64,000 nucleotides of DNA from contig NZ_CM001398.1 in NCBI RefSeq assembly GCF_000241055.1, positions 248,001 to 312,000 on the forward strand, in the 5' to 3' direction. Below, piece by piece: positions 30,373 through 36,550 of the stretch. Position numbers and translations under genes: made by a program. Source of the DNA: Oenococcus kitaharae DSM 17330. Its GTDB lineage: Bacteria; Bacillota; Bacilli; Lactobacillales; Lactobacillaceae. A model generated the notes under the pieces. That model worked only from the letters and a program-made list of their open reading frames with translations. It made no database searches and was not told where the DNA came from. Positions within the stretch are counted from its first letter, which is position 1, and the number at the start of each line of letters is the position of its first letter.

Positions 30373-30400
30373 TTGACAAACGCGCCAGCTATGTTATATT
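30373..30400 (+). promoter_or_regulatory. Promoter of the methionine T-box operon
   Basis: TTGACA (30373-30378), 16-nt spacer, TATATT (30395-30400), about 20-30 bp before the first conserved T-box element. Confidence 0.7.
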
Positions 30401-30419
30401 TGTAGACATAGATTTCAAA

Positions 30420-30697
30420 CGACTTGATCCGGAGAGTAGTTTTGAACCAAAGCAGAGAAAGTTGGCGTTTGATGCAAGCCAACGTGCGGGGAGAGATGAA
30501 CATGGCCGGTGATTGGCTGGTGCGAACCGTTTACGGAAAACACCAGACGGAATGGCCCTCGTTACCGGGCACGCCATTAGAGGCAGCTCATACGCTTTGC
30601 TTTAGATGGTTGGCAAGACTTGTGTTTGGCAACAAAACAAGTAAAGCAGGATGGTAACGCGTTAATCGCTTCTGTATTTCAGGAGCGATTTTTTTAT
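30420..30697 (+). ncRNA. T-box riboswitch, specifier AUG (methionine)
   Basis: The leader fills most of the 458-bp gap before metQ. Stem I shows the GAGAGTAG (loop E/K-turn) element at 30432-30439, a distal hairpin, and on its 3' side GAAC-ATG-G with the Met specifier at 30502-30504. The conserved T-box AGGATGGTAACGCG is at 30648-30661. A terminator hairpin AATCGCT (30664-30670) / AGCGATT (30684-30690) with a T run follows directly. Uncharged tRNA-Met should pair with the specifier and T-box and allow transcription of the downstream genes. No SAM (S-box) features were seen. Confidence 0.9.
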
Positions 30698-30747
30698 ACC
30701 TTTGTTTCCGGATTGAAATCGTTTAAGAAAATGGGATGGTCTATTAC

Positions 30748-31626
30748 ATGGAAAACACACTCAAGAAAACTGCATACGTTTCACTCACGGTCTTAGCCGC
30801 CAGCGGATTGGCCTTCATTGCGCCAGCCGTATCTCAAACTAACACTGCCGATGCCAAAGCTAAGGCGATCACGATCAAAGTCGGCGTCATGACGATGAAC
30901 GACGAGGACAAGGCCGAGTGGAAAGTCATCAGCCAATATGCTAAAAAACATGGCAATGTCAAACTTCGTTTTGTCCAATTCACTGATTACAGTCAGCCTA
31001 ACCGTGCCTTAGCAGACGGCGACATCGATATCAACGCCTTCCAGCATTATTACTTTTTGGATAATTGGAACAAAGAAAATAACGCTAATTTAAAGCCGAT
31101 TGCTAAAACAGTTATCGCGCCGCTACGTCTTTATACGAAAAAGAATTACAAAAGCGTCAAAGATTTACCAAAGAACGCCCAGATTGCGATTCCTAACGAT
31201 GCGACTAACGAAGGCCGCTCGCTTGTCGCTTTGCAGACGGCCGGCTTAATTAAATTAAAGAAGGGCGTCAAACTGGCAACGCCGTCTGACATTACCAGCA
31301 ATCCCAAGAACATCAAAATTGTGCTTGTGGAAGCTTCGCAAACGGCCCGTTCGTTGGGTTCTGTTGATGCCGCTTTCGTTAATAACACCTTCGTTCCGGC
31401 TGCTGGATTAAAATTCAATTCAGCCATCTATGTGGAGCCGGTTAACAAGGCTTCCCGTAAATGGATCAACGTGATTGCAGCTCGTCCGAATTACAAACAA
31501 AATAAGAGCAAATACGCTGCTTATAAAGAAATTATCAAGGGTTATCACGAAAAGAAAATCAAGCGTTTGATCAAAAAATACTCAGGCGGAACTTCGCTGG
31601 CAGCCTGGGATATCAAGCTGAAGTAA
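30748..31626 (+). CDS. metQ: Methionine-binding protein of the MetNIQ transporter (NlpA family)
   Basis: 292 aa from ATG 30748 (MENTLKKTAYVSLTVLAASG); an in-frame ATG at 30736 is possible. An N-terminal signal peptide is followed by the NlpA fold: ITIKVGVMTMNDEDKAEW, FTDYSQPNRALADGDIDINA FQHYYFL and IPNDATNEGRSLVALQTAGL. It captures methionine outside the cell for MetI/MetN, encoded four genes downstream. Odd point: the export signal contains no cysteine, so the usual lipoprotein anchor is missing; the protein must be released, or held by its uncleaved signal. Confidence 0.88.
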   Translation: MENTLKKTAYVSLTVLAASGLAFIAPAVSQTNTADAKAKAITIKVGVMTMNDEDKAEWKVISQYAKKHGNVKLRFVQFTDYSQPNRALADGDIDINAFQHYYFLDNWNKENNANLKPIAKTVIAPLRLYTKKNYKSVKDLPKNAQIAIPNDATNEGRSLVALQTAGLIKLKKGVKLATPSDITSNPKNIKIVLVEASQTARSLGSVDAAFVNNTFVPAAGLKFNSAIYVEPVNKASRKWINVIAARPNYKQNKSKYAAYKEIIKGYHEKKIKRLIKKYSGGTSLAAWDIKLK

Positions 31627-31656: not shown

Positions 31657-32796
31657 ATGTCAGAAAATACAGATACAGTTACATTAGTTAAGCCGCCTTT
31701 TAGAGCCGATATTGTCGGCAGCCTGCTGCGGCCGCGAGATTTAAAGGACGCACATGCACAATTAGCAGCCGGTCAGATTGATCAAGCCCAGTTGTTAGAA
31801 GTTCAGCATAAAGAAATCAAGCGCATCGTTGATGAACAAGTCCAACTCGGATTAAAAGATGTGACTGACGGCGAATTTTCACGCAGCTGGTGGCATTTGG
31901 ATTTTCTCTGGGGACTGAATGGTGTCGGTAAATATGATTATGAAAAAAGTTATAAGTTTCACGGCAGCAAGACGCGTACAGATAACGCCGAACTAATTGG
32001 AAAAATTGCTTTTAATCCTGATCATCCCTTCTTTGCCGCCTTCGGCTACTTGAAATCAATCACGCCTAAGGGTGTTCTGCCTAAGCAGACAATTCCATCT
32101 CCCAGTCTGCTCTTCCGCGACAACCGTAGTGATAACTGGCATCAGTTTTACGATAATTGGCAGGATTATTTGTCCGATATTGTCACTGCCTATCGTCAGA
32201 CCATCTTGCATTTTTATGAATTGGGCGCACGTTACGTTCAATTAGACGATACGACTTGGGCCTTTTTGATCAGCAGTTTAAATGCCAGCAAAGATGATCC
32301 GGACAAACACGCTGCTTTTGAAAAAATTGCGACTGACTCTGTTCAGATTATCAACCAAATTCTGGATGGTCTGCCTGAAGACTTAACTGTCACAACACAT
32401 ATCTGTCGTGGTAACTTTCAGTCAACTTACTTGTTCTCTGGCAGCTATGACACGATTGCCGACTATCTTGGTCAGTTAAATTACGACGGTCTCTTCTTGG
32501 AATACGACAGTGACCGTTCCGGTGGTTTCGCGCCCCTAACCAAGATTTGGAATCAAGATAAAAATAAAAGAATCGTCCTTGGGATCGTGACATCGAAGTT
32601 TCCTGAATTAGAGAGTCAAGAATTATTAGTTGATCGTATTAAAGAGGCTTCAACTTACGTACCCCTTTCTAATTTGGCCATCAGCACCCAATGTGGGTTT
32701 GCGTCCACTGAAGAAGGCAACAAGTTAACCGAAGCTCAGCAATGGGATAAGTTAAAACTCGTGATCCAGACTGCCAAAACTGTTTGGCCTGAATAA
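31657..32796 (+). CDS. Cobalamin-independent methionine synthase-like methyltransferase (YxjG/YxjH type)
   Basis: 379 aa, matching only the C-terminal catalytic half of MetE (full MetE is about 750 aa). Patches FRADIVGSLLRPRDLKDAHA, DGEFSRSWWHLDFLWGLNG, YVQLDDTTWAFLIS and the zinc-ligand region THICRGNFQSTY with CGFAS near the C-terminus are visible. It likely methylates homocysteine, though the methyl donor of this short family is uncertain. It lies second in the operon behind the Met T-box, which supports a role in methionine supply. Confidence 0.87.
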   Translation: MSENTDTVTLVKPPFRADIVGSLLRPRDLKDAHAQLAAGQIDQAQLLEVQHKEIKRIVDEQVQLGLKDVTDGEFSRSWWHLDFLWGLNGVGKYDYEKSYKFHGSKTRTDNAELIGKIAFNPDHPFFAAFGYLKSITPKGVLPKQTIPSPSLLFRDNRSDNWHQFYDNWQDYLSDIVTAYRQTILHFYELGARYVQLDDTTWAFLISSLNASKDDPDKHAAFEKIATDSVQIINQILDGLPEDLTVTTHICRGNFQSTYLFSGSYDTIADYLGQLNYDGLFLEYDSDRSGGFAPLTKIWNQDKNKRIVLGIVTSKFPELESQELLVDRIKEASTYVPLSNLAISTQCGFASTEEGNKLTEAQQWDKLKLVIQTAKTVWPE

Positions 32797-32825: not shown

Positions 32826-32897
32826 AGTGATGTCGAGCAGCGGCCACTCAATTGCTTCATAAGCAATGTTATGCAGGTTCGACTCCTGCCGTCACGT
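32826..32897 (+). tRNA. Atypical tRNA-like element, CAU anticodon
   Basis: A 72-nt cloverleaf can be drawn: acceptor arms 32827-32832/32890-32895 pair (one G-U) but position 1-72 is an A-G mismatch; D-arm has only three pairs (GAG/CTC) with the loop AGCGGCC; the anticodon stem ATTGC/GCAAT is perfect around TTCATAA (anticodon CAT, 32858-32860); the T-arm GCAGG-TTCGACT-CCTGC is canonical. No CCA is encoded. It lies in the 179-bp gap between the methionine synthase-like gene and ybaK, inside the Met operon. It may be a divergent tRNA-Met or Ile, a decaying tRNA, or a tRNA mimic in the mRNA. Confidence 0.5.
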
Positions 32898-32975: not shown

Positions 32976-33437
32976 ATGTCAGTTGCAAAAGTGGCAGATT
33001 ATTTTCAACAATACGGACTGGCTGACAGAATCCATGTTTTCCAAAAATTGACTGCGACTGTGCAAGAGGCAGCCGAGACATTAGGCATTCAAGCCGACCA
33101 AATCGCTAAGACTTTGGCTTTTGACTTGGATGGCAGCCCGTTAGTCGTCGTCACCAGCGGATTGACACGTGTCTCCAATCAAAAATTCAAGGCCAGTTTT
33201 GGAAAACGACCGACCATGATCGCCAACGATAAATTGGAACAAATAGTCGGTTACGTGGCCGGCGCTGTCTGTCCTTTCGCCTTGAATCCCGGCGTCCGTG
33301 TTTATCTGGACCGTTCATTAGAAAAACACGACCTCTATTATCCAGCCGCCGGAGATGTGAACGCAGCGATTAGATTGTCCCTACAGGAATTGGAAAAATA
33401 CTCGCACCCGGCCGCCTGGGTCGATGTTGCTAAATAA
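32976..33437 (+). CDS. YbaK/EbsC-family aminoacyl-tRNA deacylase
   Basis: 153 aa, the size of a free-standing YbaK. Visible family features are the Lys in QADQIAKTLAFDLDGSPLVV (substrate-binding lysine) and the Gly-rich end VGYVAGAVCPFALNPGVRVY LD. These proteins hydrolyse mischarged Cys-tRNA(Pro) or related misacylated tRNAs. SD AAAAGGAGC precedes the ATG. It follows the tRNA-like element by 78 bp and precedes the peptidase gene by 20 bp on the same strand. Confidence 0.85.
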   Translation: MSVAKVADYFQQYGLADRIHVFQKLTATVQEAAETLGIQADQIAKTLAFDLDGSPLVVVTSGLTRVSNQKFKASFGKRPTMIANDKLEQIVGYVAGAVCPFALNPGVRVYLDRSLEKHDLYYPAAGDVNAAIRLSLQELEKYSHPAAWVDVAK

Positions 33438-33457: not shown

Positions 33458-34804
33458 ATGCCTGAAAAAACAGAAATTAGACAAGAATATTTGGATAAAC
33501 TCGCTGACTTGATCAAGATTCCCAGCGTTTCAGCGAAGAAAACCGGTTTAAAAGAAGCTAGTCAGCTGATCAGCGGCTACTTCCAGCAATTAAAGGCCGA
33601 TCAGGTCGCCATCGATGATGAATTTGAATTCCCGCTCGTGATTGCCAAATTCAAAGCAGCAAAAGCAGGTGCAAAGACCATCTTGATTTACAACCATTAT
33701 GACGTCCAGCCGGCCGAACCTTTTGATCTTTGGCACAGTGATCCTTGGACTTTAACCCAGCGCGATGGTAAACTTTTCGGCCGCGGCGTTGATGATGACA
33801 AAGGCAATTTATTGGCGCGTTTAACTGCTTTAGCTGAATACTTGGACGCCCACGATCATCAATTACCAGTCAACATTGATTTTGTCGTCGAAGGTTCTGA
33901 AGAAACGGCTTCACGCGGCCTTTCCGACTATCTGATCAAACACGCAGCCGAACTGCAGAATGATTTGGTTATTTGGGAATCCGGCGGCTATAATAGCAAA
34001 GATCAGCAAGAAATTAACGGCGGCACTAAGGGTATTGTGACTTTTGATTTAGTTGCCAAGACGGCTGATCGTGATTTACATTCCAGTTTGGCACCTGTTA
34101 TCGATTCAGCTGCTTGGCAATTATTAGAGGCGATTAATTCCCTGCGTAATCCGGACGGCACGATCGCAGTCAAGGGTGTTTATGACACAGTCCGCCCAGC
34201 TAGCACGCGTGAACAGGATCTGGTCGAAAAATACTCAACCATTGATCAGCATTTATTAGTCAACGATTTCAAACTAACAGCGCCGCTTTTAAACAGCAGC
34301 ACCCGCGAGGAATTATTAAAAGCCCTCTACTTCTCGCCGGCTTTGAACATCGAAGGCATCAGCAGTGGTTATGAAGAGGCCGGTGTGAAAACTGTTTTGC
34401 CTGCCCAAGCTGTGGCCAAACTTGAAATTCGCTTGGTTCCGGACCAAGATCCGCATGATATTTTTGATAAAGTCGCAGCTCACTTGAAGGAAAAAGGCTT
34501 TACAAATGTCAAAGCCGTCTATACTTTAGGCGAAAAACCCTATCGCTCTGACCTCTCAGCTGACGAAATCCAGCGTGTGATTGCGATTACGAAGCATATT
34601 TATGGTGATGATATTTCCTTGCTGCCGACTTCGCCAGGAACCGGCCCGGCGGCTTATTTTTACGACAACTTTAAATCGCCGATCGCAGCTGTTGGTATTG
34701 GCTATGCTGCTTCAGCGGATCATGCACCGGATGAAAATGTCCGTTTGAAAGATTATGATGATCATATCGAATTTATTAAGGAACTAATTAGCAGTTATGA
34801 GTGA
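33458..34804 (+). CDS. M20-family metallopeptidase (dipeptidase-like)
   Basis: 448 aa. Metal-site motifs are intact: LIYNHYDVQPAEPFDLWHSD, GRGVDDDKGNLLARL and the catalytic/ligand Glu pair in FVVEGSEETASRGLSD; the lid/dimer domain lies in the middle and the last His in ASADHAPDENV. Such enzymes release amino acids from dipeptides or N-acyl amino acids. Its position inside the methionine operon (8-nt overlap with metN) suggests freeing methionine from peptides or acylated forms, which is inference. SD AAAAGGAG precedes the ATG. Confidence 0.85.
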   Translation: MPEKTEIRQEYLDKLADLIKIPSVSAKKTGLKEASQLISGYFQQLKADQVAIDDEFEFPLVIAKFKAAKAGAKTILIYNHYDVQPAEPFDLWHSDPWTLTQRDGKLFGRGVDDDKGNLLARLTALAEYLDAHDHQLPVNIDFVVEGSEETASRGLSDYLIKHAAELQNDLVIWESGGYNSKDQQEINGGTKGIVTFDLVAKTADRDLHSSLAPVIDSAAWQLLEAINSLRNPDGTIAVKGVYDTVRPASTREQDLVEKYSTIDQHLLVNDFKLTAPLLNSSTREELLKALYFSPALNIEGISSGYEEAGVKTVLPAQAVAKLEIRLVPDQDPHDIFDKVAAHLKEKGFTNVKAVYTLGEKPYRSDLSADEIQRVIAITKHIYGDDISLLPTSPGTGPAAYFYDNFKSPIAAVGIGYAASADHAPDENVRLKDYDDHIEFIKELISSYE

Positions 34805-35861
34805 TCCAATCATCGATTTTAAAGATGTCAGCGTCCATTTTCAAAACGGCAGCGAGGCCGTAGATGCGGTTAAAAACATCAATTTACAGATTAAAGCTGG
34901 CGAGATTTTTGGCATCGTCGGTTATTCTGGTGCCGGTAAATCAACACTGGTTCGCTTGATTAATCTGCTGCATAGCCCGACATTGGGTGATATTTCTGTT
35001 GCCCACGTTCACAGCGTGGCGAACGGGCAAGTCTTAATCAAGGGCAAGGCTCTGCGGCAGTTGAGGCAAAAAATCGGCATGATTTTTCAGCATTTTAATC
35101 TGTTAGATCAGTCGACCGTTTTGCAAAACGTGCTTTTTGCCTTGAAACATTCTGGTCTTAACAAAACAGCACGCATCGCCAAGGCCAAAAAATTGATTGA
35201 CCAGGTCGGGCTAACAGACCGGATTGATAACTATCCAGCTCAATTATCCGGCGGCCAAAAGCAGCGTGTCGCGATTGCCAGAGCCTTGGCTAATGATCCG
35301 GAGATCCTGATTTCTGATGAAGCAACCAGTGCCTTGGATCCAAAAACGACCAAGCAGATTCTCCAGCTATTAGCGGATCTGAATAAGAAGACCGGTGTCA
35401 CGATTGTCTTGATTACGCATGAAATGCAGGTGGTAAAAAACATCGCCGACCGTGTTGCCGTCATGAAAAACGGTGAAATTATCGAGCAAAATGCGACTTA
35501 TGATATTTTTGCCAATCCGCAAAAAGCTTTAACCAAAGAATTCATCGAGACAGCTTCCGGCAGTCAAGAAGCGCTGGAAAAGGTCTTGCAGCAGCCTGAA
35601 GTCAAACAGCTTCCCAGTAATGCACTTCTTGTCGAACTATCATTTAGCGGCAGTACGACTGGTGAACCAGTGATCTCCCTTTTGGCAAAAAAGTTTGATG
35701 TGACCGCTGATATTTTATACGGCAACGTTGAAAGCATCCAGGGGATCGCCATCGGCACGCTGATTGTGGTTCTGCAAGGCAGCAAGGCAAACATTCAAAA
35801 AGCCTTAGCAGAAATTAAAGACAGGAAAATCGGTTTGCAGACGATCAAGGAGGGAAAATGA
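34797..35861 (+). CDS. metN: Methionine ABC transporter ATP-binding protein
   Basis: 354 aa. NBD with Walker A GYSGAGKSTLVRLINLLHSP, Q-loop IGMIFQHFNLL, signature LSGGQKQRVAIARAL, Walker B ILISDEATSALDP and H-loop VLITHEMQVV; the C-terminal 100 residues are the NIL domain that binds methionine and shuts the transporter (trans-inhibition). A roughly ten-residue insertion in the region after the P-loop (HVHSVANGQ) is slightly unusual. It overlaps the peptidase by 8 nt and metI by 4 nt. Confidence 0.95.
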   Translation: MSDPIIDFKDVSVHFQNGSEAVDAVKNINLQIKAGEIFGIVGYSGAGKSTLVRLINLLHSPTLGDISVAHVHSVANGQVLIKGKALRQLRQKIGMIFQHFNLLDQSTVLQNVLFALKHSGLNKTARIAKAKKLIDQVGLTDRIDNYPAQLSGGQKQRVAIARALANDPEILISDEATSALDPKTTKQILQLLADLNKKTGVTIVLITHEMQVVKNIADRVAVMKNGEIIEQNATYDIFANPQKALTKEFIETASGSQEALEKVLQQPEVKQLPSNALLVELSFSGSTTGEPVISLLAKKFDVTADILYGNVESIQGIAIGTLIVVLQGSKANIQKALAEIKDRKIGLQTIKEGK

Positions 35862-36550
35862 TTAACTGGTTAAATAAAATCATGCCCAATGTGATCTCAA
35901 TGGGCTGGGGCGGCGACTACGGCTGGTGGCAATCTATCTATCAGACTTTGTTTATGACGCTTTTTTCAGCCCTGATTGGCGGTTTAATCGGGCTGATTTT
36001 TGCCATCATTCTTGTCCTAACAGATAACGACGGCATTTTGCCTAACCGGCCGGTATTCTGGCTGGCCGATAAAATCGTTTCCGTCTTCCGCGCAGTCCCT
36101 TTTATCATTCTGCTATTCGTTATCTCACCCTTTACACACCTGCTGATTGGCACCACCTTAGGCGCAACAGCTGCCTTGGTTCCCTTGAGCCTATCCGTCG
36201 CACCTTTTTATGCTCGCCAGATTCAAGTCGTTTTGAAAGCTGTTGACCCAGGCAAAATTGAAGCTTCTCAGGCACTTGGCGCCAACAATTGGGATTTGCT
36301 CGTAATTTATATGAAAGAAAGCCTGCCGGAAATGATCCGTGTGTCGACTGTGACTTTGATTAGCCTGATCGGGCTAACAGCCATGGCTGGTGCGATTGGC
36401 TCTGGCGGCTTAGGCAACACGGTCGTCACCTTCGGCCAGCAGTCCAAATACGATGTGGTCTGGGTTGGTACGATTCTGCTGCTTCTATTAATTTTCGGTA
36501 TCCAAGCAATTGGTGATTGGTGGGCCAAACACAGCAATCACGCCGTATAG
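35858..36550 (+). CDS. metI: Methionine ABC transporter permease
   Basis: 230 aa with five membrane segments. The coupling-helix motif EASQALGANNWDLLVIYMKE matches the EAA loop of MetI permeases, and the end ESLPEMIRVSTVTLISLIGL with GAIGSGGLGNTVVTFG is typical. It forms the membrane channel with MetN as motor and MetQ as receptor. It ends the T-box operon; a bidirectional terminator follows at once. Confidence 0.95.
   Translation: MINWLNKIMPNVISMGWGGDYGWWQSIYQTLFMTLFSALIGGLIGLIFAIILVLTDNDGILPNRPVFWLADKIVSVFRAVPFIILLFVISPFTHLLIGTTLGATAALVPLSLSVAPFYARQIQVVLKAVDPGKIEASQALGANNWDLLVIYMKESLPEMIRVSTVTLISLIGLTAMAGAIGSGGLGNTVVTFGQQSKYDVVWVGTILLLLLIFGIQAIGDWWAKHSNHAV

Follow-up and report, generated by a model that had tools for sequence, protein, structure and literature searches.

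A prophage-type tRNA(CAU) gene inside Met T-box transcripts of Oenococcus is a candidate regulator of the T-boxes

Here we describe a tRNA(CAU)-type element of Oenococcus kitaharae DSM 17330 and its relatives in the genus. All copies lie in transcripts led by a Met (AUG) T-box, in two non-orthologous operons, and their sequences are best explained if the element is a conserved tRNA-type gene for a functional small RNA. T-boxes sense tRNAs, and here a molecule of the sensed type appears to be under the control of the switch itself. In our main reading, to which we give a probability of about 0.38, the element would be a CAU tRNA that starvation induces and that is poorly charged; it would compete with the fMet/Met tRNA at Met T-boxes, damping their response by feedback. 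Tentatively, we propose a loop made only of RNA, in which the Met T-box would switch on a domesticated prophage initiator-type tRNA that binds back and tunes the Met T-boxes.

In the window, the whole 64-kb stretch of DNA that was analysed, the operon runs in the order T-box, metQ, metE-like, tRNA, ybaK, M20, metN, metI:

30373 to 30400, + strand: promoter-like site of the T-box transcript, TTGACA-16-TATATT (an 11/12 consensus match only)
30415 to 30676, + strand: Met T-box leader with an AUG(G) specifier and a UGGU bulge (Rfam T-box 77.5 bits, E 2.1e-16, short of the gathering score of 93)
30664 to 30690, + strand: intrinsic terminator of the T-box
30736 to 31626, + strand: metQ-type lipoprotein gene of a methionine ABC importer (Pfam Lipoprotein_9)
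31657 to 32796, + strand: MetE-type gene, cobalamin-independent synthase, catalytic domain (Pfam Meth_synt_2)
32826 to 32897, + strand: tRNA(CAU)-type element with A1.G72, A11-U24, a 7-nt D-loop and U73, and no encoded CCA
32976 to 33437, + strand: YbaK/aminoacyl-tRNA editing domain gene (Pfam tRNA_edit)
33458 to 34804, + strand: M20 peptidase (dipeptidase) gene
34797 to 35861, + strand: metN-type ABC ATPase gene (NIL domain)
35858 to 36550, + strand: metI-type permease gene

The original prediction had placed a CAU cloverleaf with a perfect anticodon stem, a canonical T-arm, a short D-arm and an A-G combination at 1-72 between two genes of this operon, and this was borne out, with the MetE-type gene upstream and the YbaK/tRNA_edit gene downstream. 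ARAGORN called the 72 nt as tRNA-Met(CAU), and in the covariance check proposed with that prediction the element passed the curated cut-off of the Rfam tRNA model RF00005 (41.9 bits against a gathering score of 29, E 1.7e-5 in the 64-kb window). The anticodon stem is fully paired (5/5, AUUGC/GCAAU), the T-arm reads GCAGG-UUCGACU-CCUGC, and U8, A14, G18-G19, U33 and a normal T-loop are all present. The D-stem has three pairs (G10-C25, A11-U24, G12-C23) and a C13.A22 mismatch, while the 7-nt D-loop retains A14, G18 and G19. The element departs from the bacterial standard at the acceptor end, where the A1.G72 mismatch is followed by U73, and at position 21; in all copies the standard 1-72 pair and A21 are replaced by A1.G72 and a pyrimidine.

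A genome census gave 44 tRNAs above the cut-off, among which the element scores lowest. Since 44 tRNAs have also been published for this strain (PMC3250461), it is very probably already annotated as a plain tRNA. The missing CCA was considered as a sign of a pseudogene and rejected, as almost no tRNA of the genome encodes CCA. The usual CAU tRNAs fMet, Met and Ile2 stand together in one cluster, making the element the fourth; a tRNA-Ile2 identity was rejected on account of the separate canonical Ile2 gene and of the grouping of the element with phage CAU tRNAs. For the window copy, the isolated cloverleaf was predicted at -17.3 kcal/mol and the minimum-energy fold at -20.8 kcal/mol. Thus, this strain's copy may be the weaker one, because 13-22 is C.A and the alternative fold is better by 3.5 kcal/mol. 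In the three sister copies the four-armed cloverleaf is the minimum-energy structure, with the D-stem extended in genomes G006 and G003, and one anticodon-stem pair missing in G003.

Searches of the genus found the element also in genomes G005, G006 and G003, the last two being from species other than O. kitaharae. These four copies represent only three independent lineages. The element was not found in the close relative G002, nor in the incomplete genomes G001 and G004. In G006 the element comes immediately after a Met T-box terminator and is followed by metY-azlCD, and in G003 it occupies the same position before azlCD. These two loci appear orthologous through azlCD, and the O. kitaharae locus is a different operon. 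The tRNA deacylase gene (YbaK) that the original prediction noted directly after the element is adjacent in neither species, the next gene being metY or azlC, and we rejected a partnership; the adjacency is specific to O. kitaharae and probably incidental.

By our own rough estimate, the probability of chance co-location in both operons is about 1e-5 or less, if Met T-box transcripts make up about 1% of the genome and the DNA no more than 250 nt from a Met T-box less than 0.1%. The genus T-box survey revealed no further case of a tRNA directly behind a T-box; at the tyrS T-boxes, a normal tRNA-Ala follows at a distance of over 1.4 kb. A pattern search of 395 Lactobacillales genomes, a sample with no other Oenococcus, matched only the window's own genome.

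Near-identical copies of the window's Met T-box leader were found elsewhere in the genus. Dispersed leaders (L133-L135 in G003, L114-L116 in G006, L148/L149 in G005) are identical over about 300 nt within G003, and nearly so within G006 and G005. They are only about 72% identical between species, a pattern of concerted evolution or recent duplication. The element-free genome G002 carries a Met T-box of the same class (L120, G002:C2:148057-148317) ahead of a 151-aa open reading frame, which we take to be GAF/free-methionine-sulfoxide-reductase-like.

We then compared the copies between species. The element copies of O. kitaharae and of G003/G006 share 76-80% identity, those of G003 and G006 85%. 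In the first of these comparisons, identity is 72% for the T-box and only 33-42% for the four-fold degenerate sites of metQ and metE, near saturation. Pairs in which both bases changed and pairing was preserved occur in the acceptor, D and T stems, answering the proposed check for compensatory pairs in relatives; 92.9% of cells are paired and four pairs carry double changes. In shuffle controls, which are weak with four sequences, 10 of 500 shuffles reached the observed pairing and covariation score and 152 of 500 the number of double-change pairs. The anticodon loop UCAUAA, the T-loop UUCGACU, A1.G72, A11-U24 and U73 are invariant in all copies. Because 76-85% identity and compensatory changes stand against near-saturated four-fold sites, the comparison indicates that the element is maintained as a tRNA fold, under a sequence constraint looser than that on translation tRNAs. 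Across thirteen ordinary tRNA kinds, identity has a median of 100% and a minimum of 97%; the much faster evolution of the element suggests a role outside mainstream decoding. With only three independent lineages, inheritance rather than selection may account for U73 and A1.G72.

The same comparison bears on whether the element is a prophage tRNA copy that is decaying or neutral, with a decaying copy among the options raised originally. Its low tRNA score, the mismatches at 1-72 and 13-22, the alternative fold of the window copy and the location of related tRNAs in prophages would all fit decay. However, the identity retained across three lineages where neutral sites are nearly saturated, the compensatory changes and the repeated placement in Met T-box transcripts led us to reject this already disfavoured explanation, which keeps only a slight probability. 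The divergent tRNA, another of those options, was supported instead.

Regarding its expression, the only strong (11/12) promoter-like site on the + strand between 30300 and 33600 is the one upstream of the T-box, and the only + strand terminator-like hairpin in the window operon is that of the T-box. A private tRNA promoter between T-box and tRNA was sought; G003 and G006 had none, and the window had only a weak 9/12 match in metE. Since no strong promoter-like site and no other terminator-like site lies between T-box and tRNA, the element most likely depends on readthrough of the T-box.

To trace its origin, a covariance model of the four copies was run against 397 Lactobacillaceae genomes, with ordinary tRNAs scoring about 44. 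The best matches outside Oenococcus were L050 (68 bits) and L051 (62 bits); next came two initiator tRNAs together with L054 and L055. L050, L051 and L054 flank genes for dUTPase, a late transcription activator, a terminase small subunit or a phage methyltransferase. CAU tRNAs with an initiator-like D-stem and a 7-nt D-loop were present on 29 IMG/VR contigs. In the tree, built on 72-nt sequences, the Oenococcus copies form one group (0.98), sister to L050/L051 (0.92). BLAST of the element copies and a prophage relative against phages and plasmids gave no match. With the caveat that the sequences have only 72 nt, the simplest reading of the 7-nt D-loop and the grouping with phage tRNAs is that the element probably descended from a prophage tRNA. 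In the phage CAU family (L050, L051, L054 and the IMG/VR tRNAs L188-L216), the D-stem is initiator-like, the D-loop short and the anticodon stem elongator-like, and L050 and L051 have a C1.A72 mismatch.

A 1-72 mismatch and A11-U24 are initiator/formylation features. The element has both traits, an unpaired 1-72 (A1.G72, not the usual C1.A72) and R11:Y24 (A11-U24), and lacks the consecutive G-C pairs that initiators carry at the bottom of the anticodon stem. Among the determinants of bacterial Met identity, the CAU anticodon is the main one for MetRS, and A73 is another (PMC9976931); the element has CAU, with U73 in place of A73 in all copies. Given U73 and A1.G72, it should be a poor MetRS substrate, although charging may be efficient, since MetRS depends mainly on the anticodon.

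As a T-box ligand, the element offers CAU to the AUG of the specifier region (GAACAUGG in the window operon) and an elbow with G19/C56. Antitermination depends on the NCCA:UGGN contact (PMC7583486, PMC4695836), and here U73 faces UGGU or UGGC in all Met T-boxes found in the genus; none has the UGGA bulge that would match U73. Because U73 would mispair with these bulges, the element should bind the Met T-box leader but support antitermination poorly. The genus initiator tRNA has an unusual anticodon arm, UCAGG-CCCAUAA-CCUGA (L226 in G000, L228 in G006, L229 in G002, L230 in G003, and G005:C1:535052-535078), in which C33 replaces the near-universal U33 and A29-U41 replaces G29-C41. In the other genera matched by the same initiator pattern, the sequence is CGGGCUCAUAACCCG. 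The Met T-box specifiers read AUGG, whose fourth base could pair with the initiator C33.

For the element we infer its transcription and processing, how far it is charged, its binding to T-boxes and the direction of its effect, and our model combines these as follows. Methionine operons of Oenococcus would have captured a prophage-type, initiator-like CAU tRNA, which would share the transcript that starts at the Met T-box promoter. It would be made mainly while uncharged methionine/initiator tRNA allows polymerase to read through the T-box terminator. Its release would take RNase P and a 3' cut of the RNase Z type, and then the addition of CCA. It would dock on the AUG specifier of the genome's Met T-boxes through CAU, the intact elbow (G18-G19, T-loop) and a free 3' end. 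U73 would remain unpaired with the UGGU bulge, and U73 and A1.G72 would make it a poor MetRS substrate. The net effect would be competition, induced by starvation, that damps the response of the Met T-boxes. Against this model, the close relative G002 lives without the element, the 13-22 pair is broken in the window copy, for which another fold is predicted to be better, and reliance of MetRS on the anticodon could allow efficient charging. A regulatory role on the T-box is plausible from sequence.

The main rival, somewhat less probable than the main reading, is a supplementary methionine-accepting tRNA, an elongator or backup initiator used in translation and co-induced with the genes for methionine uptake and synthesis. 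The complete tRNA fold, with U8, A14, G18-G19, U33 and normal T-loop, would suit such a tRNA, as would CAU as the main MetRS determinant (PMC9976931), the initiator-like 1-72 mismatch with A11-U24, and phage relatives that look like working tRNAs. However, the element has U73 rather than A73, evolves much faster than translation tRNAs (76-80% against 97-100%), lacks the G-C pairs of the initiator anticodon stem, and accompanies fMet, Met and Ile2 genes already in the genome.

The invariant CAU loop argues that AUG pairing is used, in translation or on the T-box specifier, and thus argues against a role in cleavage only. This makes improbable a processing signal, in which an RNase P/RNase Z cut would separate the leader or upstream genes from the downstream genes and leave the tRNA as a by-product: an RNase P-only role leaves the anticodon loop unexplained, cleavage would not need the equally invariant G18-G19, and the operon position varies between species, even if the element stands upstream of an open reading frame in a T-box transcript at all loci and its acceptor and T stems are conserved. 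Very improbable is a positive-feedback latch, by which the uncharged tRNA would keep Met T-boxes switched on once starvation is over. An anticodon that fits the AUG specifier, the intact elbow, a 3' end free after CCA addition and poor charging, which would leave the tRNA uncharged, are all compatible with a latch, but every Met T-box bulge found has U or C as its fourth base, with which U73 cannot pair.

The damping competitor that we favour would place a tRNA-type gene with the anticodon read by a T-box inside T-box transcripts, as a self-referential regulatory circuit and, if true, as a prophage tRNA turned host regulator. The literature searched contained no description of T-box-regulated tRNA genes, and with the element the function of divergent extra tRNAs could be tested by simple genetics. 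Its phage relatives in IMG/VR and at L050, L051 and L054 share the GAGC/GCTC-type D-stem, 7-nt D-loop, CAU and elongator-like anticodon stem. Unlike the element, they lie in phage regions, mostly have A73, often with C1.A72 or a paired 1-72, and none of those inspected adjoins a T-box. GOLLD RNA offers a looser parallel: the related CAU tRNA L055 adjoins a GOLLD match, whereas the window has no GOLLD match. The Staphylococcus aureus met T-box prefers the initiator tRNA (PMC3771891); it too precedes methionine genes and senses a tRNA with initiator features, as found in the element, but its ligand is the ordinary initiator tRNA, and the passages considered mention no operon tRNA gene. The Bacillus cereus pseudo-tRNA tRNAOther, reported to affect how a T-box regulates trpS1 (PMC3399842), is likewise an extra tRNA-like RNA, poorly suited to translation, whose anticodon matches the amino acid sensed by the T-box. 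In contrast to the element, which lies inside Met T-box transcripts, tRNAOther has a Trp (CCA) anticodon, flanks a pathogenicity island and is not described in that paper as part of a T-box operon.
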